A DNA stretch of 60,809 bases from a virus. Positions 4,811 through 55,326 of this stretch are shown here, piece by piece (within the stretch, counting starts at the first letter, position 1; each line of letters opens with the position of its first letter). A program made the translations under genes and the position numbers. The stretch is taken from positions 1 to 60,809 of IMG/VR virus record IMGVR_UViG_3300030118_007016. One strand, 5' to 3'. Below the pieces are notes generated by a model. The model was not told the DNA's origin. It was given only the letters and a program-made list of their open reading frames with translations, and searched no databases.

Positions 4811-4819
4811 ATTACTTAA

Positions 4820-33520: not shown

Positions 33521-34206
33521 TTTTTTGGTTTCTCACAACGGATGTAAATCCACTTTGGGTGCTGATTATCTGAAAATGATTGTCTTACATTGGTTGTTAC
33601 GTTAACAAACCCTATCTGATGCAAATCTTCAATCACATCGTTTTCATCACTAATTCTTACATCCCAGCCTGAGTTTGTACATGTCGCCTCATACATATTA
33701 TCATGATATGATGCTGGTTTCGTCCCTGCTTTAGGAACAGGTCCATAAGTCATTTGAAAAGAAAAAACAGCTCCGGGTTTCATAACTCTTAATATTTCTT
33801 TTAAAATATTCTGTCTAATATCATAAACAGGTATATGTTGCAGAGTTATTGTTGACATTACAAAGTCATATTCATCTTTGTTCAGGTCTTTCAAATCAGT
33901 TCCACTATTGACGTACCAATCGCTATTTTGTTCTTTATATTCTTTGCTGCAATATTCTATGTTGCCCTCAGAAATATCAACTCCGTCGACCCGAGACCAT
34001 TCAGCTAGGGAAAGCATATTTGTTACATTTCTACCTTTACCGCAGCCAAAATCAAGTGCTACTTTACCATTCCAACCATCGTTATTTTTAATATCATTCA
34101 ATAGGATATTCCAATAATCATTGTTTGAATTATGCTCTTGGTGATTACTAGTGCCACCCCTGTATTGATCTTTTTGCATTTTTGTGTATTTGTTATTAGA
34201 ATCCAC
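33517..34206 (-). CDS. SAM-dependent methyltransferase, class I
   Basis: A class I Rossmann methyltransferase: motif I is VALDFGCGKGRN (residues about 49-60), an acidic end of strand 2 (VDGVDISEGN) binds the SAM ribose, and motif IV/post-I is DFVMSTITLQHIP. The start is GTG at 34206 with GGAG 10 nt upstream; an in-frame ATG at 34179 is the alternative. Within a glycan operon a sugar O-methyltransferase or carboxyl methyltransferase is likely. The acceptor cannot be read from the sequence. Confidence 0.8.
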   Translation of the reverse strand: MDSNNKYTKMQKDQYRGGTSNHQEHNSNNDYWNILLNDIKNNDGWNGKVALDFGCGKGRNVTNMLSLAEWSRVDGVDISEGNIEYCSKEYKEQNSDWYVNSGTDLKDLNKDEYDFVMSTITLQHIPVYDIRQNILKEILRVMKPGAVFSFQMTYGPVPKAGTKPASYHDNMYEATCTNSGWDVRISDENDVIEDLHQIGFVNVTTNVRQSFSDNQHPKWIYIRCEKPKK

Positions 34207-34921
34207 TTTTTCTATTCTCCAAGTAGTGCTTTAAATCTTCAGGTGTCCCAAGTCCCCACATTTTGTGTACGTAAAATGGGATAAGTGACTTTCCATCTTT
34301 TATAAGTTCATTGTACACTGGAGCTATGTAAAACTCATTGTTTACACGAATATCTTTTTCGATCATTTGCTTAGCATATTTTACGAAATCAGATCCTTTT
34401 CTATACCAATAAATCCCGCAGGTGGCAATATCTGATATTGGTTTTTTCTCAGCAACCTCAGTAATAAATCCACGGGCATTTGTCTTTACAAAAGACCACT
34501 TAGGGTGAACTGCGTTAAATGTAAAGACAATGGCATCAGAAGTGGTCATGTTTTTTAAAGACAAAAAGTTTTGAGGATGATATTCAATAAACTGATCTGA
34601 GTTTGCTATTAACAAATCCTCATCGTCATCGATTAAACTTTCTGCAAGCAGTGCCGTGCAAGCTGCCCCTTCTGTTAGTCCATCTACAACCACATAACTA
34701 AAATGATCATTTGTAATTCTATCAAGTGTGTGCAACAATCCTTCGTATTTTTCTATATGTTGTTTTCTCACCAAAAAAATATATTCACAATCAAAATCCA
34801 AATTTTCAACAACTGTTTGAATCATTGGTTTTCCGTTTACATCAATAAGGGGTTTTGGAAATGTATAACCTTCCTTGGCAAACCTACTTCCCTCACCCGC
34901 CATTGGTATTAAAACTTTCAT
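34196..34921 (-). CDS. Sugar-phosphate nucleotidyltransferase
   Basis: A 241-residue NTP_transferase protein. The N-terminus MKVLIPMAGEGSRFAKEGYT is the nucleotide-binding GxGxRF loop, then FPKPLIDVNGKPMIQ with the sugar-nucleotidyltransferase Lys. DLLIANSDQFIEY carries the metal-binding Asp region and later KKPISDIATCGIYWY the sugar site. Such enzymes make NDP-sugars from NTP and sugar-1-phosphate; size and motifs are near single-domain LicC/RfbF-like enzymes. It overlaps the methyltransferase gene by 11 nt and the HAD gene by 29 nt, an unusually deep overlap. Confidence 0.82.
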   Translation of the reverse strand: MKVLIPMAGEGSRFAKEGYTFPKPLIDVNGKPMIQTVVENLDFDCEYIFLVRKQHIEKYEGLLHTLDRITNDHFSYVVVDGLTEGAACTALLAESLIDDDEDLLIANSDQFIEYHPQNFLSLKNMTTSDAIVFTFNAVHPKWSFVKTNARGFITEVAEKKPISDIATCGIYWYRKGSDFVKYAKQMIEKDIRVNNEFYIAPVYNELIKDGKSLIPFYVHKMWGLGTPEDLKHYLENRKSGF

Positions 34922-35531
34922 TAATAAATCTCCTTACATTTTCTATGTTTACTTCTGTTGCATTATTGACTTGCATAACTTTACATCCAGATGCTCTCGC
35001 TGCCTGAATACCTTTTGGCGAATCCTCTACTATCATCGCATCGTCTGGATTTATTCCTAGATCTTTCAAGATTTTCAAATATCCTTCAGGATCTGGCTTT
35101 GATTTAATAACATCTTGATTGCTAACAAACATATCTAAAGATGAAAAAACACCAGCTTTTTCAAGCATTAAACACGCTGTTTTTCTAATACTATTTGTAA
35201 AACATGCTACTTTTACATTATTTTCTTTCAGCCATTTAATAAGTTCTACCTTTGTTTCATCATATTGACACTTACTATGAATAATATCTAATGTTTTCTG
35301 CTGTTTTAGTTCTCCAATATCTTTATGGTATTCCTCCAGTAAAACACCCATGTCTGTTAGTTTTTTTAATTTTACTTTTGTTGGTAGACCATTAAATGTT
35401 GAATAATGTTCTTCCTCTGTAATAACATAATCTGTATATTGACCCAGAGCTTTGTTAAATGCCTCTTTGTGCCAGTCACATGCATCAATCAGTACCCCAT
35501 CCATGTCGAACATTACAAGTTTTAAACTCAT
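34893..35531 (-). CDS. HAD-superfamily phosphatase/phosphomutase
   Basis: Haloacid dehalogenase fold, subfamily I with a helical cap. Motif I is FDMDGVLIDA (nucleophile Asp9, acid/base Asp11), motif II ACFTNSIR, motif III Lys in SKPDPEGYLKIL, and motif IV VEDSPKGIQAARASG. Closest in pattern to beta-phosphoglucomutase and sugar phosphatase types. It would supply or dephosphorylate a sugar phosphate for the neighbouring nucleotidyltransferase. The ATG at 35531 overlaps the previous stop. Confidence 0.85.
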   Translation of the reverse strand: MSLKLVMFDMDGVLIDACDWHKEAFNKALGQYTDYVITEEEHYSTFNGLPTKVKLKKLTDMGVLLEEYHKDIGELKQQKTLDIIHSKCQYDETKVELIKWLKENNVKVACFTNSIRKTACLMLEKAGVFSSLDMFVSNQDVIKSKPDPEGYLKILKDLGINPDDAMIVEDSPKGIQAARASGCKVMQVNNATEVNIENVRRFINESFNTNGG

Positions 35532-36247
35532 GCTGTACCTCTTAAGTTGATGTCTATTCCATGCTCTTCAACTACATTTCTTAGAGAGTCTCCATAGTCA
35601 CTAGTGTACCATTTACCTTTAACTATTGCTGTTGCAAAATATGGGTATATACTACTGTCCCAATGAAACATTCCTCGTTTATTGTCGCATTCTTGCCAAG
35701 TCATGCCAGTTTTTATGCCTAAGTACTCACATATCATAGATGAGTTTGATTCGAACTCCCATATATTATTGCCATATGTTTTGCTATATATGCTCATTAG
35801 TTTTTCTTTATTGCAAACACTTGGCTGAATAGCGAATCTTAGATTTTGTGGATTCTCATACACATCTGGATGGTTTGTATTGTTAATTAAAGGATGATTT
35901 TCATCATAGCTAGCTCTAGCTAGTTTTACGATATCTATCTCTCCCTCTTTTACAAGATGAACTATTTGATTTATTTTTTCTTTATTTGGAGCGTCATATA
36001 AAAACATATCCTCGTGATGAAAAAGCACAATCTCTTCTTCAACTTGTGCTAAACAATGGAGCATTCTTTTTTGATATGACAAAGAATCATCGTATTTAAT
36101 AACAATCCAATCATTATCTAAGTCTTGAGTAGATTGATCTGTAAATAAATATTTTTTATAACCTTTCATATACTTGTCTGTCTGTGCAAAAAGAGGTGCC
36201 CACACATCAGAGTAATCAGAATGAGAATAAAATACTAAAGGAATCAT
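35528..36247 (-). CDS. Putative glycosyltransferase-like protein, 239 aa
   Basis: Start taken at the ATG at 36247, which overlaps the upstream stop as TAATG; a GTG three codons upstream is less likely. The sequence runs from MIPLVFYSHSDY through KYLFTDQSTQ to a VLFHHEDMFLYD motif reminiscent of the DxD-type metal site of GT-A glycosyltransferases. Later FESNSSMICEYLG and RGMFHWDSSIYPYF are likely acceptor-site elements. No firm family match is made. Soluble, no membrane span, coupled to glycan genes on both sides. Confidence 0.65.
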   Translation of the reverse strand: MIPLVFYSHSDYSDVWAPLFAQTDKYMKGYKKYLFTDQSTQDLDNDWIVIKYDDSLSYQKRMLHCLAQVEEEIVLFHHEDMFLYDAPNKEKINQIVHLVKEGEIDIVKLARASYDENHPLINNTNHPDVYENPQNLRFAIQPSVCNKEKLMSIYSKTYGNNIWEFESNSSMICEYLGIKTGMTWQECDNKRGMFHWDSSIYPYFATAIVKGKWYTSDYGDSLRNVVEEHGIDINLRGTA

Positions 36248-37080
36248 TACACCCACCTTGTCTTTTCATAAAGTCCTACTTTTTTGCAGAACCACTTGTG
36301 ATAAAGGTGACTATCAGTGACTCGCCACCTTGGATATTTCATTAAATTTTTGCTTCTTTCATTTTGAGGCTTTTCTAATTCGTTGGTAAACTGCTCTGGT
36401 GCATTAAAGTCCCACACATTATATCTAACACTATCAAACCATCCACTTGTTAAGCACTTTTCATACTCCGAGTTAGGCTTAAAATCCTGTAAAGCATTTT
36501 CATATATTGTAGAATATTTTTTCATAACTTCCCCAGAGCCATAAAACCACATGTCTCCGTATCCAGCATTCATTTGATCCCAATATGTAGTGTACAAATA
36601 ACTTGGATCCGATTTAGGATCAAATCTAAGCTGATTCACTTCAGAACCACCTCTCTGGCTTATGTCAAATCTAGTTGTTATTACCCAATCATATACAAAA
36701 TTATTATCATTTTCATACTTTTCTCTTAATTGTAAGGCTTTTTTTCTTGAGTAATAGAAGCTTAGTATTCTGGATGCGATTGCATTGTTATACATTGTTT
36801 GTTGTCTTGGGAACCCTTCATCAATGTACTGCTGACTTATTCCATTATCTGTACATATTTTATCAAAATCTACTTGTTGCTCAAATAGAGACATTTTTGG
36901 AGAATAGAAATCTTCAACTATACTTTCATACTCTGGTTGCCAGCAGTGCACAAATACATCTACACTATCAGACTTAGAATAAACTGTCTCTTTTAAGTGT
37001 TGTAATCCCCCAACAACGGTTGAATGATCTCCAGTGCTTACAGTTCCAAAATATCCGTGAAGACATAGAGCGATTCTCAT
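36247..37080 (-). CDS. Putative glycosyltransferase, 277 aa
   Basis: The start (MRIALCLHGYFGTVSTGD) is a Rossmann-like strand-loop. VDVFVHCWQPEY and VITTRFDIS (a R-x-D motif usual for the donor site in this loosely defined group of GT-A-like enzymes) follow, then YGDMWFYGSGEVMKKYS. Its C-terminal WRVTDSHLYHKWFC element recalls phage and bacterial proteins annotated as polysaccharide glycosyltransferases. Catalysis is unproven. ATG at 37080 follows the aminotransferase gene, overlapping by 4 nt. Confidence 0.65.
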   Translation of the reverse strand: MRIALCLHGYFGTVSTGDHSTVVGGLQHLKETVYSKSDSVDVFVHCWQPEYESIVEDFYSPKMSLFEQQVDFDKICTDNGISQQYIDEGFPRQQTMYNNAIASRILSFYYSRKKALQLREKYENDNNFVYDWVITTRFDISQRGGSEVNQLRFDPKSDPSYLYTTYWDQMNAGYGDMWFYGSGEVMKKYSTIYENALQDFKPNSEYEKCLTSGWFDSVRYNVWDFNAPEQFTNELEKPQNERSKNLMKYPRWRVTDSHLYHKWFCKKVGLYEKTRWV

Positions 37081-37697
37081 CTTACCTCCACATCTTTAAA
37101 CAGATTAAATTCAGTTAAGTCTCTGTAAGGGGGGTTTTCTGGTATGTCTGGTACATTCTCAGGGTAATTTTGCATCAACATAAGCCCCCGAACTGCTTGC
37201 TCTGGAGTCATATACATATTCCAACCCTCTTCATCAATCATATCCTCGTGATATAGCATACCATCAGTTCTTCCTTCATAGCGACGGGCTTTTAACCACT
37301 TCATAGCATCTAAGTTATCAAGCAGAATCATACCTCCCTTTCCAATCTTAAGGTGTTTTTTTATGTGAAATGAAAGGCACATCATTGTTCCGGGGATGTA
37401 CATATTGGAAGTTAATCTTTTTGCTGCATCGTATATTGGAAATGGTTTTAGTTGATAAATACCTTCCCATTGAATGTCTTCAAAAACTAACTTTCCACCT
37501 GCTTGCATGACAGATTGTGGTGGAGAAAGGTATGTTCTCTTTGGCAAAATTACTTCTTTGCCTTCTACTTTGTGCCACTTACAGGCGAGAAAAAGAGCAT
37601 TGGTGCAACTATTAACTGATACTGCATAAGGTGCGCCGGTGTAGTGTGCAATTTCTTCTTCAAACATTTTTACTACTTTGTATGGACTATGTAGCAT
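37077..37697 (-). CDS. Truncated DegT/DnrJ/EryC1-type sugar aminotransferase
   Basis: The ATG at 37697 (ATGA overlap with the upstream stop) is preferred to a GTG one codon earlier. HYTGAPYAVSVNSCTNALFL, then EVILPKRTYLSPPQSVMQAG and FEDIQWEG, fit the PLP-binding large domain of sugar aminotransferases. The likely Schiff-base Lys is in CLSFHIKKHLKIGKGGMI, matching the family S-F-x-x-x-K-x-x-x-x-G-x-G-G pattern. Members are usually 360-400 residues, so at 206 residues the C-terminal small domain is missing. No frameshift remnant follows, so this is a compact version, active or not. Confidence 0.75.
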   Translation of the reverse strand: MLHSPYKVVKMFEEEIAHYTGAPYAVSVNSCTNALFLACKWHKVEGKEVILPKRTYLSPPQSVMQAGGKLVFEDIQWEGIYQLKPFPIYDAAKRLTSNMYIPGTMMCLSFHIKKHLKIGKGGMILLDNLDAMKWLKARRYEGRTDGMLYHEDMIDEEGWNMYMTPEQAVRGLMLMQNYPENVPDIPENPPYRDLTEFNLFKDVEVR

Positions 37698-38887
37698 CAC
37701 TCTGTCTCCAAAATATAATATTTCTTTTTAAATCCACAAGCCTCAAATAACTTTATGCTAGCTTCATTTTCAAGCTTTACTTTTGCAAATGCTTTAGGCT
37801 CTTGTTTGATAATATTTTTTATCATATATTTGCCTAACCCCCTTCCTTGAAAGTCTGGGTGTGTTGCAACTCTAATGTCATTGTCAATCACTCCAGCGTA
37901 TCCAGCAAAAGCATTATCAACCAAAGCAACGTAAAAACAATCAGAATATTTTTTCATAAATTGGTTGTGTTCTTCCTCGGATATGTGCTCTTGATTAATA
38001 AAACCTGTTTTTACTTGTGGATGATTTCTTAAGTCTCTTATGTTGTCCCAGTATTTTTTTTGATTTTTTACAATATGAACATCATTAGACCACACACATT
38101 TTTTTCCTATATCTGCGGATTTGTAGTTAGACCAGAAGTGCCCCTTTAAATAATCCCTCTCATATCCCAAATCAAAATATGGATGTAACGTAGTGCCAAT
38201 ATCTAAGTACGTGTTTTGATCATATTCTTTAAAAAGCTCATGTATCAATATCTCACTCAAACTGCTCGCTGAAAAAAGAAAGACGTGATCTTTTATGTTA
38301 TTTTGTTTTATCCAATCTTTAATTTCATCTGCTAAATGATGATCATTTACGATGCAGTTTTCTCCAACCCTAAAGTCCTTTACAACATCAAAGCAAAGTT
38401 CTTTTTTTGCTTTTTCTAAGTCTGCATTTTTACTACATACCATTACAACTTTTCTTTCTGCTATAATGGGAACCAGTCTCGTAAGAAATGCTTCATAATT
38501 CCCATTAACAAATAAATTTGCCCATGTTAGATATTCATTTGTTCGCCCAACTTGTCTCTTCATCCAAGCATGTGCTTGATGACCTCCGATACAACAGGGG
38601 CAAGCTATACCAGTATAATAATTGTCTTTAGAAAACAAAAAGGATTTTATAAGCTTGTCTCTTACAAAAGCATGCTTTTCTGGATCGAAATGCTTATGGT
38701 CTTCTTTACTGTATCCAAAGTTATGTGTAAAGTCCCCCTCTATAACATAATCATCAGCTATAACTAATTTCATATTTTTTAGAATATCAGCCTCACCGTC
38801 AGAAAATCTTACAAATGCAAAGTTTTCTTTTGCAGCAAGCTTTTCAGCAAACATTTCTAAATCTTTAGTAAAGTCTTTACCTAACAT
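37697..38887 (-). CDS. GT-D-like glycosyltransferase fused to GNAT acetyltransferase
   Basis: Residues 1-260 resemble the DUF1792/GT-D glycosyltransferase fold: FAFVRFSDGEAD (R27-F-S-D-G-E32), an ACPCCIGG segment, KVVMVCSKNAD, and TYLDIGTTLHPYFD near residue 235. Residues about 290-396 are a GNAT acyltransferase: YVALVDNAFAGYAGVIDND, then the acetyl-CoA loop HPDFQGRGLGKYMIKNII, and ASIKLFEACGFKKK. The pairing suggests transfer of a sugar coupled to N-acetylation of the sugar or acceptor. It overlaps the MBL gene upstream by 11 nt and the aminotransferase by 1 nt. Confidence 0.75.
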   Translation of the reverse strand: MLGKDFTKDLEMFAEKLAAKENFAFVRFSDGEADILKNMKLVIADDYVIEGDFTHNFGYSKEDHKHFDPEKHAFVRDKLIKSFLFSKDNYYTGIACPCCIGGHQAHAWMKRQVGRTNEYLTWANLFVNGNYEAFLTRLVPIIAERKVVMVCSKNADLEKAKKELCFDVVKDFRVGENCIVNDHHLADEIKDWIKQNNIKDHVFLFSASSLSEILIHELFKEYDQNTYLDIGTTLHPYFDLGYERDYLKGHFWSNYKSADIGKKCVWSNDVHIVKNQKKYWDNIRDLRNHPQVKTGFINQEHISEEEHNQFMKKYSDCFYVALVDNAFAGYAGVIDNDIRVATHPDFQGRGLGKYMIKNIIKQEPKAFAKVKLENEASIKLFEACGFKKKYYILETE

Positions 38888-40106
38888 AACACGTATCTCT
38901 AAATGAAAGCATCTGTCTCCATTGTTTCATATTATGAACACTAAAACAAGATGTAATATTCATAGTATCAGCTCCCCAAGGATTTTTAAAAAACCCATTC
39001 AAATCGTAAGATGTTACAGAAGCTATAGGAACTTTGCTCAAGTCATCTGTATGTGTAAAACTTATTTTGCTATCTGCAAAACTAAACTCACAGTATTTAT
39101 CGATATCCTGAACACATAGGGTAAATTTGGTGTCTGGGACATTTAATCCAAAATAATTTTTTAACTTTGATATTTCCCTATACATTGAAGAGAAAGACTC
39201 TTCCAAGTCATCTTTAGTAAACATTGTAGTTTTCTTTGGATTTTTGTTCTTAGCTTCATTAAATATGTTTGACCACTTTTTGCAGTTAGATAATGACTTT
39301 TTACGATCCATTTCAAATGGAATATTTTCAAGATAAAATGGTGCAAACATATTTATATTTTTATTGTTCTCTATAACCTCTTGAATGTTTACAATATGAT
39401 CGTTTAAAAAATGATTTTCAGGTCTACAAAAAGTTATAAAACTAGCAAATGGAATCGTTATTTTTGGGTTTAGTATTCTATGCGTATCTAATAAGTCAGA
39501 AATATGAGATTCCATAGCCAAATTAAGAGACTTTTTATCATCCTTATTTCCATAAAATCCTGCTAATGAGAATTGGTTAAACAACAAATCAATATCTCTT
39601 CCCATCATGTTTTCAAAAATACCTGTCTTCATTCTATGAAGTTCCTCTGTATTAAATTCACAATCATTTTTATTGAGAATTAGTTTTCCGTCAATGTCAA
39701 ACAACATTGCAGAATCATGATTATTTTTGAAAAAAGAAAATGTGAAATGGTCTATATCGTTGGTATAAAACTGATATGGTTCGAATTGATAATATTTAAA
39801 CCCTAGATTACTCATATTTTCATGAATATTGTCATTATCTCTCTTTGGCATTAAGACTTCTATTCTTTGGTTACATTTTTCTCTTATTTGCTTTAGAGTA
39901 GACCAGCTCAAATGATCTGGGTGTTCATGAGAAATAAATATATACTTTAGGTTTGATAAATCCAAATCGTCTATATTGGTTTCGTTTAACAACTCCCAAG
40001 AATCATTAAAAACTTTTCCACTAAACCATGGATCAACTAGAATAGAATAATCTTTTTTTATGATTTGAAAACATGCGTGATTTATAAACTTAACTTCAAA
40101 ACTCAT
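38877..40106 (-). CDS. Metallo-beta-lactamase-fold hydrolase, 409 aa
   Basis: A beta-lactamase-fold metal hydrolase with the HxHxDH site in YIFISHEHPDHLS (His60, His62, Asp64, His65). Early FINHACFQIIKKDYSILVDP is typical of the UlaG/CMP-Neu5Ac-hydroxylase-like branch, which acts on sugar or nucleotide-sugar substrates. The second metal-binding half is less clear. The C-terminal 150 residues are not a usual MBL tail. It is embedded in the glycan run, downstream of the UDP-GlcNAc epimerase-like gene, so a sugar substrate is probable. Confidence 0.75.
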   Translation of the reverse strand: MSFEVKFINHACFQIIKKDYSILVDPWFSGKVFNDSWELLNETNIDDLDLSNLKYIFISHEHPDHLSWSTLKQIREKCNQRIEVLMPKRDNDNIHENMSNLGFKYYQFEPYQFYTNDIDHFTFSFFKNNHDSAMLFDIDGKLILNKNDCEFNTEELHRMKTGIFENMMGRDIDLLFNQFSLAGFYGNKDDKKSLNLAMESHISDLLDTHRILNPKITIPFASFITFCRPENHFLNDHIVNIQEVIENNKNINMFAPFYLENIPFEMDRKKSLSNCKKWSNIFNEAKNKNPKKTTMFTKDDLEESFSSMYREISKLKNYFGLNVPDTKFTLCVQDIDKYCEFSFADSKISFTHTDDLSKVPIASVTSYDLNGFFKNPWGADTMNITSCFSVHNMKQWRQMLSFRDTCYVR

Positions 40107-41091
40107 CCTTCAAGACCTCATACACTTTTTGGGCAGCATATCCGTCTCCATAGGGGCAGTCTCCGATAGGAATGTGATCCTCATTGACTTGATTGAAAAG
40201 ACCTTCCAAATCCTCTGGTTCAAGACACATAAAAGCAAAAGTGTTGACACCTTCAAGTCTTTCGGTTTTCTTTCGGCATACAATACATTTCTTTTTTAGA
40301 AAAGAAGTTTCTTCTTGTAATCCGCCAGAATCAGTGATAACCAGTCTTGTTTGAGCCAACAACTTTATAAACTTATTATACTCCATTGGCTCAATAATTT
40401 TAAGGTTTTTTAGCAAGTGTTTGTGCTTTTGGACATTAGGATTTGGGTGCAGGGGTATAATAAAATCTAAGTCTTTATTGCCTTCTGCAATCTTATCGAT
40501 GGTCTTGAACCATTGATCCATGTTGTGATGATTCTCTCTTCGATGCATTGTTACAATAACTTTGTTTGTGTATTCTGTCTCAATATCTCGTAGGTTATCC
40601 AGCACAGTATTGCCTACAACCTCTACTCTACCTTGAGTATTCTCATTAGATAAAAATACTTTGCTAAGATCTGTTGGACAAAGATGAACATCAGCAATTC
40701 TAGATATTGCCTGACGGTTGAACTCCTCTGGATATGGTTGATTTTTATCGTATGTCCTTAAACCTGCTTCCAAATGGATTACTTTGATCCTTCTGTGGAA
40801 AGCAGCAAGAGCAATAGAGAAAGCAGAAGTCGTGTCTCCCTGCACCAAAACAGACGTTACACCTTCAAAAATCTCTTCTAAGTTCATAACGGAACTCACG
40901 ATAGAGTCAAGTCGGTTTGGACCGTCTTTGATTTCTAACTTTACTAAATCTATGTCGTCCCCTACTTTTGAGAGTAGGTCTGTGTGCTGACCTGTGAAAA
41001 GCAAACGATAAGGAATATTGCCGTCCATTTGATCTAGCAATGGCTTAATTTTAATCCACTCTGGTCTAGTTCCAAAACTTAATAAAATCAT
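40096..41091 (-). CDS. UDP-N-acetylglucosamine 2-epimerase-like
   Basis: All hallmark motifs of the WecB/NeuC family are present: SFGTRPEWIKIKPLL, VLVQGDTTSAF, HLEAGLRTYDKNQPYPEEFN, RIADVHLCPTD, VGNTVLD, VTMHRRENH and TDSGGLQEE. The 331-residue length is a little below cellular enzymes (about 370). The reaction is the interconversion of UDP-GlcNAc and UDP-ManNAc, or a hydrolysing relative of it. That gives the pathway an N-acetyl-mannosamine-type precursor. Overlaps both neighbours by a few bases. Confidence 0.9.
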   Translation of the reverse strand: MILLSFGTRPEWIKIKPLLDQMDGNIPYRLLFTGQHTDLLSKVGDDIDLVKLEIKDGPNRLDSIVSSVMNLEEIFEGVTSVLVQGDTTSAFSIALAAFHRRIKVIHLEAGLRTYDKNQPYPEEFNRQAISRIADVHLCPTDLSKVFLSNENTQGRVEVVGNTVLDNLRDIETEYTNKVIVTMHRRENHHNMDQWFKTIDKIAEGNKDLDFIIPLHPNPNVQKHKHLLKNLKIIEPMEYNKFIKLLAQTRLVITDSGGLQEETSFLKKKCIVCRKKTERLEGVNTFAFMCLEPEDLEGLFNQVNEDHIPIGDCPYGDGYAAQKVYEVLKDEF

Positions 41092-42695
41092 ACTTTTATG
41101 CCTCGCACAGTTTCCCAGCCGCCTTTGATCGCTGTTTGAACGCAGACATCCCTTTCACTAAAAAACTGCTGATGTGATACAGCACTGTTAGTTGATGTTG
41201 CTTTTGTATCAATGCCCAATTCATTGCCCAAGATAGATCCGTGAAGACTTGTATCCTCTGGTGGGTGTGGGGGACAGTAGGTTTGTATATTGCCGTATTT
41301 CTGTGCAAGGTAAGAAAACTGGATGTCTTCTCCATTGTCCCAAGTAGTTGGCTTTTCTCTCCACAAGTGTGATAACCACTCTCGCTTAAAGAACCAAGCG
41401 TGTCCTACTAGATCTACCCTTGTTGTTTCACTATTTTGTGTGGGCCACCCGCATCGGTCGTGTTGAACATAGAACTTGTCGTTCAATGTGACACCAGCAG
41501 ATCCAAGAATGCCTTCGCTAGTTTTCATTGTTTCCAAACAGTTCTCAAACCAACGATCTCCCGGTATAGTGTCATCGTCAAAGATGGCTACATATTCAGT
41601 GTCAGCCAGCAAAGCAGCGGCAAACCTTCCATAAAACTTCCAGTTGTGATCATTGTGAAATACTCTATCAAGGTCCAGTTCTTTAAAGTTAAATCCAATG
41701 TTATCCTCGTGTTCATTTACCCACAGCCAAACCTGCGCTGGTCTGGTTGTTTGTTTTCTAATCGCATCAATCTGCATTCTAAGATTGTATGGACGACGGT
41801 ATGCATTTAAAATAACTGTAATAGGGGCAGTTGTAAACTCTTTTCTTTTCTCGCTTTCTAATACCTCGACAACTTTGTCAATAACCTCAGTTTTTTGGGA
41901 CCTTACAAAGTCAAGAAGCTCTTGTCCTTTATACTTTGGGAACCAATCCTCGCTTGCACATCCAAGGTTGTTATTAGTTTTAAGTTTACAGTTTACAATA
42001 CGGGCTTCAACAGCTAAACGACAAAAGGTTTCGAGGACTTGGGAAAAGAAGACCAGCCCGTCGTGTTGAGAAAGTTGGTTAATGAAGTTATCATAGTCTA
42101 AAGAAACAATAAGATTGTAATCAATATTGTGTTTTTCGCAGAAACTTTTCGCTTGATAGGTCCCTTTTATTTCATTGGAGCTGCTTAAAACAGCCATCTT
42201 GCCATTTTTCTTTGTATCTACATATTTTTGCAAAACATGTAGTTCTTCATCAGACCAAAGAGAACAACCAAGATTAATTACATTTGCTTCTCTAATGTTT
42301 TTGCTGATTACTTCTGCGTGTAGTTTAGATTGAGCAAAGACTGCCTTGGCATTTCTGTAGAACTCCAAGTTGGTCAAGTTAGTTGCTGGAACCCTATAGT
42401 CTTTGTAAGGTGAAGGATCTCGACCAACAATGTATTTGTGATCATGTTCATAGATTACATAATCACAAGTTTGTAGCAGACGCAAGCATGCAGGACTGAG
42501 CATAACAAAGTTGGATACAATAAAGGTTTTTTCTGCATTGTCTTTGATTAGCTTTTCTGTTACTTGCTTAGATTTTATGCGAGTTACTTTGTATCCTCGT
42601 TCAACAAGGGAGTTGACAACAACCTGATCTACAAGTTCACCGCCACCCTTTATCTCATCAGCATAAAAATCTGCTATGTGGATTATTCTTTTCAT
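41088..42695 (-). CDS. Two-domain glycosyltransferase (GT-B-like N-half, GT-A C-half)
   Basis: Residues 1-285 look like a GT4-type GT-B fold lacking some helices: IADFYADEIKGGGELVDQV, YVIYEHDHKY, KMAVLSSSNEIKGT and FFSQVLETFCRLAVEARI. Residues about 290-535 are a GT2-like GT-A domain: APITVILNAYRRPYNLRMQI, EYVAIFDDDTIPGDRWFENC with a DDD metal motif, and WDNGEDIQFSYLAQKYG carrying the acidic ED acceptor-site pair. A bifunctional enzyme adding two sugars is likely. The second half is the better-supported catalytic unit. Confidence 0.82.
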   Translation of the reverse strand: MKRIIHIADFYADEIKGGGELVDQVVVNSLVERGYKVTRIKSKQVTEKLIKDNAEKTFIVSNFVMLSPACLRLLQTCDYVIYEHDHKYIVGRDPSPYKDYRVPATNLTNLEFYRNAKAVFAQSKLHAEVISKNIREANVINLGCSLWSDEELHVLQKYVDTKKNGKMAVLSSSNEIKGTYQAKSFCEKHNIDYNLIVSLDYDNFINQLSQHDGLVFFSQVLETFCRLAVEARIVNCKLKTNNNLGCASEDWFPKYKGQELLDFVRSQKTEVIDKVVEVLESEKRKEFTTAPITVILNAYRRPYNLRMQIDAIRKQTTRPAQVWLWVNEHEDNIGFNFKELDLDRVFHNDHNWKFYGRFAAALLADTEYVAIFDDDTIPGDRWFENCLETMKTSEGILGSAGVTLNDKFYVQHDRCGWPTQNSETTRVDLVGHAWFFKREWLSHLWREKPTTWDNGEDIQFSYLAQKYGNIQTYCPPHPPEDTSLHGSILGNELGIDTKATSTNSAVSHQQFFSERDVCVQTAIKGGWETVRGIKV

Positions 42696-43969
42696 TATTC
42701 AAAACTTATAACAGGCTCTTCTTCTTTTTGAGTTTCTACAGGAATGACAGCGTTTGCAAAAGCTTCATATTGTTTGTCTTCATCAAATTCTTTTTTAATC
42801 CAAGTTTTAAGTTTTTTAGCCATTTCTTCATATTTGCTATAGTCTTCATAAACGTTACTAACAACTTTTTTGAAACTACTTTCATCAGCATAGCACCACA
42901 TTGAGTCTGCCTGTAGCACCCCATCCCACACAGCCTCTTGTTGAATAGGACCAAGTGTATACTCCACCTCTGCAAACATCGGCTTTAAAACTGTTTGTGT
43001 TTTCTTTTTCGATCCTTTTTTTCTTTGCTTTTGGGGCATATTTAAAAAATCACATTGTCCACTCCAGTTAGTAGTAATAACTGGAAGTCCACAATAAGCC
43101 GATTCGAAAAGAGGAAGACCGTAGCCCTCACCGTGGCTCAAAGAAATAAAAGCTTTGATTTTTGGATGCGAATACAATCCAATCATCTCAGGGTCAGACA
43201 TATCCCCATGCAAAACGTATAACTTACATTGAACACCATCAGCAGCGAACTGAGAGACAAGGTTCTCAAACTGCATCTTGTCCATCGTTGAATTGTTTCT
43301 AAAAAAACCTTTTATTACAAGACCAACATTTGGGTTATCTTTGAAGTTTTCTACAAACCACTTAATTGTATTGCTAGCATTTTTTCTTGGACCCCATTGT
43401 GATACCATCAAAAAATTAAAATCTGTTTCCAAATCCAGCTTCAAAGACTTTTTCTTTGTTTTTTTTGCAGGATAATTTACAACAGTAATAGGAATATTTG
43501 ATTTCCTAACACTAGCTTCTCCAACCTTTTCATTATTAGCACGGTTATACACTGGATAGCTAGTATTTTCTAGTGTATTCTTTGAGTGCGAAGAGGTCAC
43601 GACAATCCTATCCATGGCGATACTTTTCTCAACCCATTGGGGAGATACTTTTGTTGTCTCAATTCCAGCGGTGTATCCAACATTTACAGGAGCTATTTTT
43701 TCCCACTCATTAGGTATAGTAACTTGTAAAGAAACATCAAACTTACCATCGCCCTGCATATGATGGAATGTTTTGCCTATTAAATAATCGACATAGTTTT
43801 TTTCTTCATCATATTGAGAAACCCATCCAGTTTGTCCCCAGTTGGTATTAATCAAATATAGATCGATCTTATCTTCTTGTCTTCTTAAAGAACGCAGTGC
43901 AAATCTTGCCTGTTCTCCATAACCAGATCTGCTCAACACTGGTCCTCTAATAACAACCTTTTTTTTCAT
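42695..43969 (-). CDS. Glycosyltransferase family 4-like, 424 aa
   Basis: A GT-B retaining-type glycosyltransferase. The N-terminus GPVLSRSGYGEQARFALRSL is the donor/acceptor glycine loop. The C-terminal donor domain has FNFLMVSQWGPRKNASNTIK, then KAFISLSHGEGYGLPLFESAYCG with the conserved E-x(7)-E motif, and PVITTNWSGQCDFL. No signal or membrane span. It follows the next GT gene by 14 nt, with GAGGAAA before the ATG at 43969. Substrate unknown. Confidence 0.88.
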   Translation of the reverse strand: MKKKVVIRGPVLSRSGYGEQARFALRSLRRQEDKIDLYLINTNWGQTGWVSQYDEEKNYVDYLIGKTFHHMQGDGKFDVSLQVTIPNEWEKIAPVNVGYTAGIETTKVSPQWVEKSIAMDRIVVTSSHSKNTLENTSYPVYNRANNEKVGEASVRKSNIPITVVNYPAKKTKKKSLKLDLETDFNFLMVSQWGPRKNASNTIKWFVENFKDNPNVGLVIKGFFRNNSTMDKMQFENLVSQFAADGVQCKLYVLHGDMSDPEMIGLYSHPKIKAFISLSHGEGYGLPLFESAYCGLPVITTNWSGQCDFLNMPQKQRKKGSKKKTQTVLKPMFAEVEYTLGPIQQEAVWDGVLQADSMWCYADESSFKKVVSNVYEDYSKYEEMAKKLKTWIKKEFDEDKQYEAFANAVIPVETQKEEEPVISFE

Positions 43970-43983
43970 TACGTTTCCTCTTT

Positions 43984-45240
43984 TTAATTAATCTTTTTGA
44001 ACGTCCATGGACTATACTGCTTTCTGGTTTCCCAAGAACCTCGCTCCTCATGTACTCTATCCAGCAAATCTACCCATTTTTGTTGATATTTTTCGTAAGA
44101 ATAGTTTGTGAGAACATGCTCTCTACCAGCTTTGCCAAGCGCTTCTCTTTCTTCTTTACTCATATTATACATTTCTCTCATGGCACTCATAAAATCTTCT
44201 TTACTAACCCTGTCCTCATAGATGTATGGCACCTGTTGGGATCCGATTATTGCTTTTGAGCAGGGCTGGATGCCAATACCAAACCAATTTTCTCCATCTG
44301 TGACTTGTTCTTGTAGTCCTCCGGTCATATTGACTACGATAGGAGTTCCACAAGACAGAGATTCTAGAGTAGCCAAGCCGAAGCCCTCTGCATCGGATAT
44401 ATTGATCGTGCAATCTGCAAGATTATACATCATCCCTAGTTGCTCAGGAGAAACTTTATTTGTTGATAGTCTAATTTGTCCATCCACGGCACCAAAATGT
44501 TGCATCAAGTGTTCTAGTGGCTGACCATATGGATCATTTGGATCAGTATGCATTAGCAAAACTACCTTATCTTTACCGACTTCATTAGCAAAATCATTAA
44601 ACCACTTTAATAAACTGCCACTTAGCTTTCTTCTTGCATTCCTATTATTCCAAAAGAATACAAATTTACCATCTAAATTTTGTTTTGTTTTTATTTCATC
44701 AATAGTATCTTGGTCGACCGGCTTAAAAAACTGTGGATCTACTGCATGGGGTAAATAAATATTTTCAACCTTGTCTGTAACTTCTGAAACTACCTCATGT
44801 GTAACTTTAGATATGGAAGCTATAACGTCAGTCGACTCATACCACCCTTTATTAAAAACAGGCGCTGGATGATTATCCCATACATGATAATACACCATTG
44901 GAACTTTGTCTCTAATCTCATTGTCCATTAACCAAAGCCATTCATAAAATCTAGGGTCCGTCATAAACCACAAGATATCGGGCTTTTGAGTGGACAATAT
45001 GGACCTGATTTGTTCTTGGGTGCCGTATCCATCGACTGGAAATATTGTCCAATCTCCATTTGATCCCTCAACTGTGATAGGATCATAAGTTGGATGCTTA
45101 ACTGCTCCTCCTAGAGATATAACCTGATATCTGCCTGTTTTTAGCAATGCATCAATCATGTTTTTTGTTTGATTTGCTACTCCGGATGGAGACAACGGGT
45201 GGTCGCTAAGTGTCAAAACTTTAATTTTTTTATCTGTCAT
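43984..45240 (-). CDS. Glycosyltransferase family 4-like, 418 aa
   Basis: ATG at 45240 makes an ATGA overlap with the nuclease gene; a TTG two codons earlier is not needed. The N-terminal Rossmann half has VLTLSDHPLSPSGVANQTKN and DILWFMTDPRFYEWL. The C-terminal half has FVFFWNNRNARRKLSGSLLK, then CTINISDAEGFGLATLESLS with the E-x(7)-E motif, CGTPIVVNMTGGLQEQV and a C-terminal helix. A retaining GT4 enzyme using an NDP-sugar, related in plan to the neighbouring GT gene but not a recent duplicate. Confidence 0.88.
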   Translation of the reverse strand: MTDKKIKVLTLSDHPLSPSGVANQTKNMIDALLKTGRYQVISLGGAVKHPTYDPITVEGSNGDWTIFPVDGYGTQEQIRSILSTQKPDILWFMTDPRFYEWLWLMDNEIRDKVPMVYYHVWDNHPAPVFNKGWYESTDVIASISKVTHEVVSEVTDKVENIYLPHAVDPQFFKPVDQDTIDEIKTKQNLDGKFVFFWNNRNARRKLSGSLLKWFNDFANEVGKDKVVLLMHTDPNDPYGQPLEHLMQHFGAVDGQIRLSTNKVSPEQLGMMYNLADCTINISDAEGFGLATLESLSCGTPIVVNMTGGLQEQVTDGENWFGIGIQPCSKAIIGSQQVPYIYEDRVSKEDFMSAMREMYNMSKEEREALGKAGREHVLTNYSYEKYQQKWVDLLDRVHEERGSWETRKQYSPWTFKKIN

Positions 45241-46010
45241 TTGCAATGTTCCGTTTTATGAAATTCACACTTGCGGCATGCAAGCCTGTTTTTTATGAAG
45301 TTTTTCTTCTCAATATTGTAAATCGCTTTTTCAAGAAATTTAAGTGCATTTTCAGTTTTTCTTGGACCACTTGTGACTCGAAATATTTCAACTCTTTCTT
45401 TTTTAGCTGTTCTTTTAAGCAGTGCGAAGTGAGTTTCTATCATCTTAGGGTCTACATTGTGCTTTTTAGCCCAATAATGCTTGTAAAAAGTCAACTGGTA
45501 GGTCATCATTGGGTCAGATTTCTTGCGAGCATCCCATCCCCAAGAGCATGTTTTCCAATCGATGATATGTGTCTTGCCATCAGAGGTCTCGATAACCAAA
45601 TCAATGAAGCCTTTGAACTTATTTTTCTCTTCACAAGGGAAATCTTCGATGATTTCCATCAAATCCTCTTCAGCAGCGAGGACTTTATACTCTCCAAAGT
45701 GCTCTTTCATGGCAGGAAGCACTTCTTCGAGGATCAATGGACCTTGATTTTCCATGGAAGTAACCAATTTTTCGTCTTTTTTAACATTTTTGGGCAAATT
45801 TTCAAGACTTTCTTTGAATTTTAGGTCAAAAAACGATTTTTTATCGTCCAAACCCTCAGTCATCATCTTTTCGCAGGTATCGTGGATAGCATTACCAAAA
45901 GCAGTGAAAGCATTGCCTTCAAAGCCTTTTACCTTGTCTATGTTCATTAATTTGTGATAAAAAGGACAAAAATCCCAGTTTTTTGCCTCAGAAAAGCTAA
46001 TATGACCCAT
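45237..46010 (-). CDS. PD-(D/E)XK nuclease, RecB/Cas4-like
   Basis: ISFSEAKNWDFCPFYHKLMNI and AFTAFGNAIHDTCEKMM start the fold; the catalytic residues are Asp137 in KGFIDLVIET and D151-x-K153 in HIIDWKTCSW. Three C-terminal cysteines (ACRKCEFHKTEHCK) with Cys15 near the N-terminus resemble the four-Cys iron-sulfur site of Cas4 and AddB nucleases. At 257 residues it is a stand-alone exonuclease-like protein. It is the first gene upstream of the GT run, though a DNA-end-processing role is unrelated to glycans. Confidence 0.85.
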   Translation of the reverse strand: MGHISFSEAKNWDFCPFYHKLMNIDKVKGFEGNAFTAFGNAIHDTCEKMMTEGLDDKKSFFDLKFKESLENLPKNVKKDEKLVTSMENQGPLILEEVLPAMKEHFGEYKVLAAEEDLMEIIEDFPCEEKNKFKGFIDLVIETSDGKTHIIDWKTCSWGWDARKKSDPMMTYQLTFYKHYWAKKHNVDPKMIETHFALLKRTAKKERVEIFRVTSGPRKTENALKFLEKAIYNIEKKNFIKNRLACRKCEFHKTEHCK

Positions 46011-48509: not shown

Positions 48510-49337
48510 ATGCGACAAAGACTCAAAATCATATTAACATTACTTCTACTTAGTCTTTCAGTACTTTCTTGTGCCACTTCTAATCTTGACTTTCAAAGAG
48601 GTGCGAGAGATACATTTGTTAAAATAAAACAAAACGTAGCAATTACTGTTTGTAACCCAGAGGATCCTAAAGAATGCCTAACAAAAACAAGTAGATCAAC
48701 TGGATCTGGCGCTGTTGTTATGAGAACTGATGAAGGATCTTATGTTTTAACTGCTGGTCATGTTTGTTCTTTTGAAAAAGAAATGCAGTTAGCATCAGAA
48801 TTTGCTGGTTCAAAAGTATTAGTGCAAATGAGATCAGTTAATCTTAATCTTGGGGAATATGTATCTGATATTATTAGCATGGATAATACTATAGACACTT
48901 GCTTACTGTTTGCTCGCAACCTTTATACAACCAAAGTAGCAAAAATAGCACCATACTCTAGATCTCTAGAAGAAGGTGAGAGGGTTTACAATGTAGCTGC
49001 CCCTGTTGGCATTTTCTATAAAGATGTGGTTCCTCTCTTGGAGGGATTCTTTATGGGCAATAGAGACACTAGAGCATATTATTCTGTGCCTGCAATGGGC
49101 GGTAGTTCTGGTTCTCCTATATTTAATAAACACAATGAAATCGTTGGTATGATTCACTCGGTCAATGTATATTTCCCAGTTGTGTCAGTTTCTCCACCAC
49201 TTAAAGAGCTTAGAGCTTTTATCGTCAATGGTATAAGGAAGAATGAGAGATTGAGACTTGGAGAGAAAAAAGACAGAGTTATTGAGCCCTTTTGGAAAGG
49301 CTTGGGTCTATCTGATATGAGTGATAATAGTCTTTAG
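48510..49337 (+). CDS. Trypsin-like serine protease, predicted lipoprotein
   Basis: The N-terminus is a lipoprotein signal: basic MRQRLK, hydrophobic ILTLLLLSLS, and lipobox VLSC with lipidated Cys21. The mature part is a chymotrypsin/HtrA-like protease with His84 in YVLTAGHVC, Asp129 in NTIDTCLLF, and Ser200 in AMGGSSGSPIFNKH. There is no PDZ domain after it. It would be anchored in the outer or inner membrane of the infected cell, facing the periplasm. It is the only plus-strand gene in this stretch and ends flush with the tRNA-Leu gene. Function could be host-surface remodelling or blocking of superinfection. Confidence 0.82.
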   Translation: MRQRLKIILTLLLLSLSVLSCATSNLDFQRGARDTFVKIKQNVAITVCNPEDPKECLTKTSRSTGSGAVVMRTDEGSYVLTAGHVCSFEKEMQLASEFAGSKVLVQMRSVNLNLGEYVSDIISMDNTIDTCLLFARNLYTTKVAKIAPYSRSLEEGERVYNVAAPVGIFYKDVVPLLEGFFMGNRDTRAYYSVPAMGGSSGSPIFNKHNEIVGMIHSVNVYFPVVSVSPPLKELRAFIVNGIRKNERLRLGEKKDRVIEPFWKGLGLSDMSDNSL

Positions 49338-50505: not shown

Positions 50506-50536
50506 TAAAACCTCTGTAGTTATAAAAAATATTTAG

Positions 50537-50610
<74 letters not shown>

Positions 50611-50958
50611 TCATAATTCTTTTATCAAATGATCCCCAGCCGCTCTCATATCAGTTTCCAACTTGTGTAGATAGGCAGCGACTAGTATGAATCTAGACAC
50701 AAAACTTATTTCTTTTTTTGACAAAATAGTGCTAAACTCTTTACCATCTTTGTTTTTATGCAAAAAAACATAGTTAAAAACATATTGCTCTGTTTGAATA
50801 CCAACTTTTTTGGCTAGGTCTTCATAGGATGGATGACACGACTTACACTCTTTGACCCATACATTTGAATTTTTTCTAGTTTGTGAATAGTCTTGTGCTT
50901 GAACAGCAAAAGGAGTGAATACAAAAAGAATACAAATATATTTTAAAATGTTTTTCAT
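50611..50958 (-). CDS. Secreted CxxCH protein, cytochrome c-like, 115 aa
   Basis: The first 21 residues ([20 protein letters not shown], then A) are a clear Sec signal with cleavage predicted at VQA/Q. The mature protein has [17 protein letters not shown], a CxxCH haem-attachment motif (Cys38, Cys41, His42). It is followed by a helical region typical of small c-type cytochromes, with no clear axial Met. This would be exported and haem-loaded in the periplasm. A non-haem use of the motif cannot be excluded. The upstream promoter has its predicted start at the ATG itself. Confidence 0.65.
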
Positions 50959-50964
50959 GGAAAC

Positions 50965-50993
50965 ATTATAGCTTATATTTATTTAAGTTTCAA
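50965..50993 (-). promoter_or_regulatory. Sigma70-type promoter before CxxCH gene
   Basis: TTGAAA at 50988-50993, 17-bp spacer, TATAAT at 50965-50970 on the minus strand. The expected transcription start falls at or next to the ATG (50958), implying a leaderless or near-leaderless mRNA. Confidence 0.65.
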
Positions 50994-52130
50994 GAACTTT
51001 TTTAATTCTTCGATTCTTTTCTTTGGAGATTTTAGCCCACCAACGATTGTGTAGGCGACGAGTTTCTCTCTTTCTGGATCTTCGTAAATACCCCTGTGAA
51101 TGATTGCGCCCCCAGTTAATGTCGCTAATGTGTCAAATCCATATTCAATATTGTCCATTAGACCGGGGACGGTCTCATAAAGTACAGAACCTCCAACGAT
51201 AATTGAGGCGGCTCCTTTTGCAGAAGTTAAATCAAACCCGCTGGCAAGTAATGTTTTTTCAAGATTATTTCTAAGCCCCTGTGACACTGAAGTTGGACTT
51301 TCGGGGTCTTTGATTGTAGTGGCTCCGAAAATCATGCAACCTGCTGTTTTCATAATACTGTCATAATCTGCTGGATCAAACACAGTATAGTCAGAGTTTT
51401 TAGTGCACAAAAGATTAAAGATGTGAAATAGTCCGGCGACTGTATTGTTTAATGTTGGCCAAAACTGCTTTACAGTTAGTCGTGGATAAAGCTTTTTGAT
51501 TTTATCATTATCAATAATGACTAAAGGTGCAAAGTTTCCATTTTCAGCTTCTGCACAAAGCTCTGTCATTCTATTGTATGAATTTTCTGCCACTATTGGG
51601 GACGCACACTCTCCGCTAGTAGGTAATGATGCAATAACTCCTACTCTTTCACTAGGATTTTCTACTCCAATATAAGTAAAATATCTTTTTGCAGTGTCCA
51701 AAAGAGACATAACACTACCTCCTCCGGTTCCGCCCCCAACACCAACACAAATCAAGATACGGTCGATTTTGTCACCGAAAATCTCTTTGTATTTATTGAA
51801 AACTTCTTGACTTTTATCATCAAATGCTTGCTTTGAAACTGCATGATTTTTTCCAGCGCCGGATGCCCCATCATACACTAGATGATGTTTGTGGTTTTCT
51901 GGGAGACCTAAGTGATTTAAGTCCGATTTTGCTAGATTAAAAGCGATTGTCTTTCTGTATCCCAAATCAAAGAATGCTTTAGCCATGCGACCTCCGCCTT
52001 GACCAGATCCAACAATACCATATCGCAATGCTCCGCCGCTCTCATCTTCAACAAAATCTACTTTTGACTGTTCAATTTCTTCAATATCAATATCTTCAAT
52101 GTCTAAAGTAGGTAAGTTTAAATCATTCAT
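50979..52130 (-). CDS. Tubulin/FtsZ-like GTPase
   Basis: The 383-residue protein has RYGIVGSGQGGGRMAKAFFD (nucleotide-loop glycine motif), FNLAKSDLNHL, and VYDGASGAGKNH. The tubulin/FtsZ signature is GVGGGTGGGSVMSLLD (residues 130-145, compare GGGTGTG), with a T7-like DPADYDSIMK. The N-terminal 35 residues are acidic; the C-terminus ends in a basic tail (KSPKKRIEELKKFLKLK). A GTP-dependent filament-forming protein is inferred; phage tubulins such as PhuZ and TubZ position replicating DNA or partition plasmids. Sequence similarity to either group cannot be judged here. The ATG at 52130 has AGGAGATTGATAAA and an ACTATTTA element upstream. Confidence 0.82.
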   Translation of the reverse strand: MNDLNLPTLDIEDIDIEEIEQSKVDFVEDESGGALRYGIVGSGQGGGRMAKAFFDLGYRKTIAFNLAKSDLNHLGLPENHKHHLVYDGASGAGKNHAVSKQAFDDKSQEVFNKYKEIFGDKIDRILICVGVGGGTGGGSVMSLLDTAKRYFTYIGVENPSERVGVIASLPTSGECASPIVAENSYNRMTELCAEAENGNFAPLVIIDNDKIKKLYPRLTVKQFWPTLNNTVAGLFHIFNLLCTKNSDYTVFDPADYDSIMKTAGCMIFGATTIKDPESPTSVSQGLRNNLEKTLLASGFDLTSAKGAASIIVGGSVLYETVPGLMDNIEYGFDTLATLTGGAIIHRGIYEDPEREKLVAYTIVGGLKSPKKRIEELKKFLKLK

Positions 52131-52164: not shown

Positions 52165-52172
52165 TAAATAGT
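52165..52172 (-). promoter_or_regulatory. ACTATTTA promoter-like motif before tubulin-like gene
   Basis: Minus-strand ACTATTTA (followed by TT) ends 34 nt before the ATG at 52130 and points to it. It is part of the repeated motif set. It sits 1-8 nt before the stop of the transglycosylase gene, so it lies in a short intergenic gap. Confidence 0.45.
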
Positions 52173-52693
52173 TAGTGGTTAGCAAACATTTCATTTTTGT
52201 ACTTTCGCTTCTGGATTCTCATTTTTCTTTTAAAATATTTTCTATATTTTAACACAGCTTTTGCATACTTTAAGCCTTGCTTGTTTCTATTTTCGCCCTT
52301 GCATCTGAAACCAGCGTTGTATCCGCACAGTGCTGTCGTTTCGTTTCCTTTTGCATATTTTTTTAGCCAATAGTTAAGTATTTTAGACCCAACACGAATA
52401 CCGGTTTCTGGATCTTTAAGTTCGTCGCAGGTTAAGTTTCTCCCTTTGTCACCATATTTTTTTGAATATTTTGGAAGTACTTGCATAACGCCACAAGCAT
52501 TCGCATGACTTTTAGCTGTTGGAGTCCATGCGCTTTCAATTCTACCAACTGCTACAATAAGTGATGGGTCTAAGTCATATTTTTCTGAAACTTCTTGGAT
52601 AATATGTGCATTTTCACATATAACATCTGCGTTTCTCATATTAATGGAAGCCGCAGTCATGCATACTAAAAATGATATATTCCAAGTTACCAC
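52172..52693 (-). CDS. Lytic transglycosylase (SLT family), secreted
   Basis: The start is a GTG (52693) with AGGA 8 nt upstream. The N-terminus is a possible signal peptide (VTWNISFLVCMTAASIN). The enzyme part has the SLT motif DPSLIVAVGRIESAWTPTA with catalytic Glu53, then CGVMQVLPKYSKKYG and TALCGYNAGFRC. Lytic transglycosylases cleave the peptidoglycan glycan strand forming anhydro-muramic acid, used for lysis or injection. It ends a few bases before the tubulin-like promoter motif. The C-terminal tail is very basic. Confidence 0.87.
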   Translation of the reverse strand: MVTWNISFLVCMTAASINMRNADVICENAHIIQEVSEKYDLDPSLIVAVGRIESAWTPTAKSHANACGVMQVLPKYSKKYGDKGRNLTCDELKDPETGIRVGSKILNYWLKKYAKGNETTALCGYNAGFRCKGENRNKQGLKYAKAVLKYRKYFKRKMRIQKRKYKNEMFANH

Positions 52694-54189: not shown

Positions 54190-55326
54190 ATGAACAACCC
54201 ACACAAAAACTGGCAAAAATTTCTTATAAATGAAGCAGGATTAAATAAAATCAGACAAGATATGCTTGACTATGATACTGCTTTTATTACAGCATTTCGT
54301 GGCAATATAGATGACAAATCTATGTGCGTTTATGTGCCCCCATCCGAAGAAGAGCTTTCTGAAAGAGACAAGATGGGCAAAAGAGGCGAGACTAATAAAA
54401 GAAACAATAAAGAACTCTCAGCCTTCCTTCTTAGTCAAGGTTATGGTGTTAAGAATGTTCAAGGATCTTACATTGAAAACTTTGGTTCAATAGACCCAGA
54501 AAAAGTGCCAAGAGAGGTAAAAGAGGCTAGTTTCTTTGTAACTAACCTAAATGGTGACCCAGAGTTTGCAGAGCAAATAATTAACCTTGGTAAAAGATTT
54601 TGTCAAGATTCAGTTATCATTGTACCAAAAGGTGAAGAGGGTTACATTTACGGAACAAACAATGGTAAATATCCGGGATTGGATCAAAAAGAGACAGTTG
54701 GTAAGTTTGCAGGTGGCGAAAGAGGCGAGTTCATGTCTCGTATTGGTGGACGACCCTTTGTTATGAAAGAGGATGAAGAGACTAAAACTTACGAAGATCT
54801 ACCCGGAAAACAAAGACAAGCGGCGAAACTAATAGCACAAAGAGTTGATAGAGAAATCAACGAAATGCACATGGTTTATAACTTAAATGAAGCAGACCTA
54901 CCTGCATATGACAACAATGGAAAAGTAACACTTTATCATTATGCACCAGTTGAAGCTGATGAAATAGAAGTTGATCCATCTCAATTCGGAAAACAAAGAT
55001 ACTCTAGAAGAGAGAAAGAAAGATCAACTTACCCTCGCTCATTCTTTTATGTTAACCTTGATCAAGCAGAGTCTGAAGTAAAATCAGGAAAGCACCTTTT
55101 TACACTTGACATTCCAACTAACAAGTTGTATAGTATAAAAAACGATCCTGATGGTCTTATGAAATCTATTAGGCACCCAACATATGGCTTTAGAAACGAT
55201 ATCGAATGGACTGAGCTTTTTAAAGAAATACACAAAGATTATCTTGGTGCTTATTATTCCACTCCCTCTATGGATCTTGTGGTTCTTTTTGAACCAGTTA
55301 AAGCGAATAAAATGGAGCAAGAATGA
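54190..55326 (+). CDS. DUF3293-like / putative ADP-ribosyltransferase-like two-part protein
   Basis: The first 25 residues (MNNPHKNWQKFLINEAG) carry a KFLxNE motif that I know from marine phage proteins. Residues 25-160 fit DUF3293: DTAFITAFRGN, NKELSAFLLSQGYGVKNVQG, EASFFVTN, and FCQDSVIIVPKGEEG. Residues about 240-378 have VTLYHYAPVEADEIEVDPSQ, FGKQRYSRREKERSTYPRSF and NKLYSIKNDP, then LGAYYSTPSMDLVVLFEPV. This LYHYxP and final ALF/VLFEP pattern resembles uncharacterised phage ART-type proteins. ART activity is not demonstrated. The stop overlaps the next start (ATGA). Confidence 0.6.
   Translation: MNNPHKNWQKFLINEAGLNKIRQDMLDYDTAFITAFRGNIDDKSMCVYVPPSEEELSERDKMGKRGETNKRNNKELSAFLLSQGYGVKNVQGSYIENFGSIDPEKVPREVKEASFFVTNLNGDPEFAEQIINLGKRFCQDSVIIVPKGEEGYIYGTNNGKYPGLDQKETVGKFAGGERGEFMSRIGGRPFVMKEDEETKTYEDLPGKQRQAAKLIAQRVDREINEMHMVYNLNEADLPAYDNNGKVTLYHYAPVEADEIEVDPSQFGKQRYSRREKERSTYPRSFFYVNLDQAESEVKSGKHLFTLDIPTNKLYSIKNDPDGLMKSIRHPTYGFRNDIEWTELFKEIHKDYLGAYYSTPSMDLVVLFEPVKANKMEQE

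Follow-up and report, generated by a model that had tools for sequence, protein, structure and literature searches.

Electron carriers of photosynthesis that phages bring to their hosts are already known, as cyanophages encode the plastocyanin PetE (reviewed in PMC10452541). Phage soxD genes bear cytochrome c motifs (Kieft et al. 2021, PMC8190135), and an early marine virome study reported a viral cbb3 oxidase subunit I (PMC3474794). A study of virus-encoded nitrogen-cycle genes recorded no cytochromes or other electron carriers in those phages (PMC8115048). In the literature that we searched, which lay mostly outside subscription journals, we found no paper on small c-type phage cytochromes, a dedicated respiratory one included.

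Here we describe a 115-residue exported protein with a single CxxCH motif, encoded in a 60.8-kb IMG/VR virus record that was analyzed in full (the window). We place the probability that it is an exported phage c-type haem protein at roughly 0.6. It is probably an altered cytochrome c that is loaded with haem by the infected cell; a role in electron transfer, taken by itself, is doubtful. We infer the haem attachment, the iron ligand, the fold, and the redox role. As a phage gene product with a cytochrome c motif, the protein resembles phage SoxD, but SoxD is an enzyme subunit of sulfur oxidation with a clear host homologue, whereas this protein is short and stand-alone, with no host homologue detected. 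As a putative small exported electron carrier of marine phages, it would be like cyanophage PetE, whose properties are likewise altered relative to the host protein, yet PetE is a copper protein of photosynthesis and holds no haem.

The window phage is contractile-tailed and T4-like, with a baseplate wedge protein (gp6), a ClpP-like head protease, PhoH, a tmRNA, and tRNAs. The features of the locus, in window coordinates, are as follows.

50611 to 50958, minus strand: gene of the 115-residue exported CxxCH protein (open reading frame, conservation, and dN/dS)
50896 to 50958, minus strand: predicted signal sequence, residues 1 to 21 (sequence read by eye)
50857 to 50859, minus strand: Trp34, invariant in 9/9 aligned members, matching the -4 aromatic of cytochromes c
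50833 to 50847, minus strand: putative haem-attachment motif CKSCH, residues 38 to 42 (C38, C41, and H42 invariant, 9/9)
50758 to 50760, minus strand: His67, invariant (9/9), candidate distal (sixth) haem ligand
50617 to 50718, minus strand: predicted C-terminal helix, residues 81 to 114, preceded by an ILS cap (AlphaFold2 model with cytochromes; cytochrome alignment)
50979 to 52130, minus strand: TubZ/FtsZ-like gene directly upstream (PF00091 and PF22453 matches just below cut-off)
50965 to 50993, minus strand: sigma70-like promoter TTGAAA-17-TATAAT before the start codon (11/12 match)
50536 to 50610, minus strand: tRNA-Arg(TCT) directly downstream (ARAGORN; position kept in 8/8 relatives)

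The first-pass annotation had described a signal peptide, one CxxCH, and about 75 further residues, and this plan was borne out, as 73 residues follow the motif. Read by eye, the signal has a Lys near the start, a hydrophobic core, and a V-Q-A cleavage site. CxxCH occurs in no other of the window's 44 non-overlapping open reading frames; by chance, about 0.00015 such motifs would be expected in 115 residues and 0.025 in all 19,223 residues of the 44 frames.

The protein belongs to a family of nine, comprising the window protein and proteins of eight other IMG/VR phage contigs, each 44-80% identical to a member. The carriers are large marine viruses of bacteria. Seven close relatives (65-80% identity) came from an IMG/VR scan, and the eighth (L012, 3986-4288; 44% identity) was located by inspecting the sequence behind the TubZ-like gene of further phages. 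By eye, all nine appear to retain a hydrophobic N-terminus and a predicted export signal. The N-terminus of one relative (L008, 5857-6294) is longer and strongly hydrophobic, which suggests a membrane anchor instead of a cleaved signal peptide. The CxxCH motif is kept in 9/9 members, so that the conservation check proposed at first pass did not refute the haem idea, and its two x residues differ among members (KS, KF, KT, or GY). Further invariant residues include W34, E37, G53, Y59, N62, H67, N69, F75, L79, S80, and F90, and His67 is the sole invariant His besides H42. The mature part has a dN/dS of ~0.05-0.11, computed for pairs with measurable dS, and is under strong purifying selection. 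With relatives and purifying selection on record, the open reading frame at 50611-50958 is a genuine gene. One scan of genome contigs returned no cellular relatives of the family.

The gene occupies a conserved slot. Counting the window, it is present in 9 of 13 phages whose TubZ-like protein is at least 70% identical, and the TubZ-like gene itself has 90% mean column identity among relatives. Four phages (L015, L017, L018, and L019) carry unrelated open reading frames behind TubZ, and L008 has an extra, methyltransferase-like gene following TubZ. The -10 element of the promoter ends six bases ahead of the start codon of the CxxCH gene, and a -10-like hexamer at equal spacing is found in six close relatives and is absent from L008 and L012. 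Sigma70-like sites in the region are no more numerous than in shuffles. If functional, the promoter would start a leaderless mRNA or drive transcription of the tRNA that follows the CxxCH gene. No gene for a redox partner was seen among the window's open reading frames.

Other genes of the window deserve mention in their own right. A match to the S-adenosylmethionine lyase family (PF23780) exceeds the cut-off at 54190-55323 and is possibly an anti-restriction function. The phage tmRNA (53833-54156) encodes the tag ANTDTYSEYALAA, identical in several relatives, and the tag of L012 is ANTNTYVDYALAA; such tags could help host identification. Judged from its open reading frames, the region 32127-45246 contains one nucleotide-sugar, glycosyltransferase-like, or methyltransferase-like gene after another, and so forms a glycan block that is large by phage standards.

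Beyond the motif itself, the sequence signal for a cytochrome appears faint. Searches of the 115-residue protein against Pfam, NCBIfam, PHROGs, PDB sequences, and INPHARED gave no reliable match, and a PDB match to formamidopyrimidine-DNA glycosylase (E 0.16) was set aside as chance. The divergent member L012 aligns with PF13442 (Cytochrome_CBB3) over 3-68 of 68 positions (E=0.001, 19.5-19.8 bits; cut-off 27), and two further members match it more weakly (14 bits). Neither the 115-residue protein nor L012 has a profile match above the curated cut-offs of PF13442 or PF00034. Among shuffles of L012 that keep CGYCH, 0/28 match PF13442. A control set of rotations and shuffles yielded 23/57 matches; when shuffles were the sole controls, nothing but the real protein matched, and the remaining matches of the set of 57 are therefore rotations. 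An L012 match to Erv1/Alr (E 0.03-0.04) lies far below the cut-off and was likewise dismissed as chance. When the family was compared with 38 cytochrome sequences in hhalign, the real score was reached by 4/200 column shuffles and by 31/64 rotations of the family; rotations retain the C-terminal helix motif and are thus an over-strict null. With home-made cytochrome HMMs, the family scored barely or not above CxxCH-preserving shuffles and rotations.

A MAFFT alignment places W34 at the -4 aromatic (F/Y before CxxCH), F75 at the aromatic of MPxW, and F90 at the Tyr of the C-terminal helix, which aligns with the LSxxEIxxVxxYI helix of cytochrome c. The window protein shares with PF13442 and cytochrome c6/c6C its predicted export, both aromatics, the LSxxEI...YI pattern of the C-terminal helix, and, when modeled with cytochromes in the alignment, the fold. 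It differs in lacking the axial Met (Gly72) and the Gly at -8, in being ~15-20 residues shorter after CxxCH, in its extra-long C-terminal helix, and in scoring below the cut-off.

The outcome of structure prediction depended on the alignment supplied. From the family alignment alone, AlphaFold2 gave no confident fold (pLDDT 51.5). With sister-phage and bacterial cytochromes added, the window sequence was modeled as a cytochrome c fold (pLDDT 90.6, pTM 0.78), a partly circular result in that the model leans on the cytochromes in its alignment. The fold check suggested at first pass did not refute the haem idea either: the best model has a cytochrome c fold, one that is confident only with cytochromes in the alignment. 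The best 43 PDB rows that Foldseek returned for this cytochrome-aided model are nearly all c-type cytochromes or domains, mostly cytochrome c6 (prob up to 0.99, every E > 0.1). VIA-align superposed it on cytochrome c6C over 70 residues (Z 6.0, rmsd 3.1), although such a Z can reflect a common arrangement. The viral structure library BFVD held nothing similar to the model.

Several sister phages from the broader TubZ lineage (~63% identity), whose contigs include terminase and portal genes, encode a small lipoprotein-like CxxCHG/MPxW protein that exceeds the PF13442 cut-off (E 1e-11 to 8e-15). An IMG/VR scan placed this canonical phage cytochrome at ten loci, and when 25 whole records were searched with PF13442, four exceeded the cut-off. 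Examples of these canonical small cytochromes c, all on marine phage contigs, are the following.

L029, 629-964: canonical small cytochrome c
L037, 397-732: canonical small cytochrome c
L055, 3026-3361: canonical small cytochrome c
L067, 1324-1677: canonical small cytochrome c
L095, 513-845: canonical small cytochrome c
L098, 5914-6252: canonical small cytochrome c

With L029 as query, no INPHARED phage record matched, and PHROGs gave only weak matches to phrog_16981 and phrog_17830, both of function unknown. Cellular relatives of the canonical protein are distant (26-43% identity) and spread over many phyla, so no host could be named. Since these sister phages encode clear cytochromes c, phages of the TubZ lineage do, as judged from the encoded proteins, acquire c-type cytochromes. 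Like the 115-residue protein, the sister cytochromes (L029, L055, L067, L095, and L098) are small and exported with a single CxxCH, and the phages that encode them mostly possess a related TubZ-like gene together with the same terminase/portal block; L095 has that block without TubZ, and L098 has no TubZ within its available stretch. They differ in having CxxCHG and MPxW, passing the Pfam cut-off, bearing a lipoprotein-type signal, and being encoded ~1.1-3.4 kb upstream of TubZ. The L098 loci 3600-3908, 4368-4973, and 5914-6255 may form a phage redox cluster, in which the cytochrome c has as neighbors an IscA-like protein and an exported lipoprotein resembling thioredoxin (MWCGPCN).

The first-pass label of a small monohaem cytochrome c thus stands in part: the motif is conserved and sister phages carry cytochromes, but similarity beyond CxxCH stays below the Pfam cut-off. 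Because the class I tests failed on the axial Met and the Pfam cut-off, we do not file the protein as a class I cytochrome c; we describe it as a probable c-type haem protein that would work like one.

Haem attachment by Ccm asks little beyond CxxCH (PMC4158909), and what CcsBA requires, and what suffices for it, is a limited sequence that contains CXXCH (PMC8112865). A host with either system should therefore load haem onto an exported CxxCH protein. We propose that the protein is exported through Sec, adopts a shortened cytochrome c fold, and carries one c-type haem, which the Ccm or Ccs machinery of the host would link to C38 and C41, with H42 as proximal ligand. One alternative is an exported protein of the envelope without haem, in which the CxxC, together with H42 and H67, would make a disulfide or bind zinc, and which could act, for example, in lysis control or superinfection exclusion. 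The weak similarity to cytochromes outside the motif would fit such a protein, as would the company of other exported phage proteins, an SLT transglycosylase and a trypsin-like lipoprotein. That the whole CxxCH is kept, His included, while the x residues vary argues for haem instead, as do the true cytochromes c of sister phages and the readiness of Ccm and CcsBA to accept exported CxxCH proteins largely regardless of surroundings (PMC4158909, PMC8112865). On balance we consider a non-haem protein unlikely, if worth keeping in view. The exported trypsin-like lipoprotein (PF13365) and SLT transglycosylase are encoded at 48510-49337 and 52172-52693 of the window, and both are present in most relatives.

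The annotation had seen no clear axial Met, correctly: no Met stands in an MPxF/W context, Gly72 or its equivalent takes the place of the methionine, and Met104 is lost in L012. Both M104 and H110 were dropped as axial ligands, being absent from L012. With the Met gone, the candidate that readily suggests itself as sixth ligand is His67, constant in all members. The iron would have either two histidine ligands, H42 and H67, or H42 as its only one and an open sixth site. As a second alternative, the haem could be five-coordinate, with His67 structural, and the protein a sensor or scavenger that binds NO, CO, or O2 instead of carrying electrons. This reading draws on the missing methionine and on the remodeled segment leading from CxxCH to the ligand loop, shorter by ~15-20 residues, but His67 is invariant in 9/9 members and, if the cytochrome alignment holds, sits in a haem-facing stretch, and the neighborhood bears no sign of nitrogen-oxide or gas metabolism; we regard gas binding as improbable. 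The protein might also be a decoy that slows respiration by occupying either a docking site for cytochrome c or the host apparatus for haem attachment. This would accord with a motif retained without the usual electron-transfer ligand and with the in vitro inhibition of cytochrome c biogenesis by CxxCH peptide analogues (PMC8112865), but the whole mature domain is conserved, His67 included, beyond what a decoy peptide needs, which makes this very improbable.

Under the preferred reading of a c-type haem protein, periplasmic electron exchange with host respiratory partners would adjust electron flow during infection, and the auxiliary metabolic role put forward in the first-pass annotation may be of this kind. 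More broadly, the protein could represent a phage-specific c-type haem family that has abandoned the His/Met design of electron carriers, the iron having His67 or an open site instead, and whose gene keeps a conserved place after one for a tubulin-like protein; its marine lineage would repeatedly carry both canonical and rebuilt exported c-type haem proteins to control host respiration or haem-based signaling. We offer this wider view tentatively, as one that may well prove wrong. An exported haem-loaded protein would let the virus act on host respiratory electron flow, and the small size of this one makes phage intervention in electron transport testable. If haem is indeed taken up, some marine phages intervene directly in the periplasmic electron transport of their hosts.
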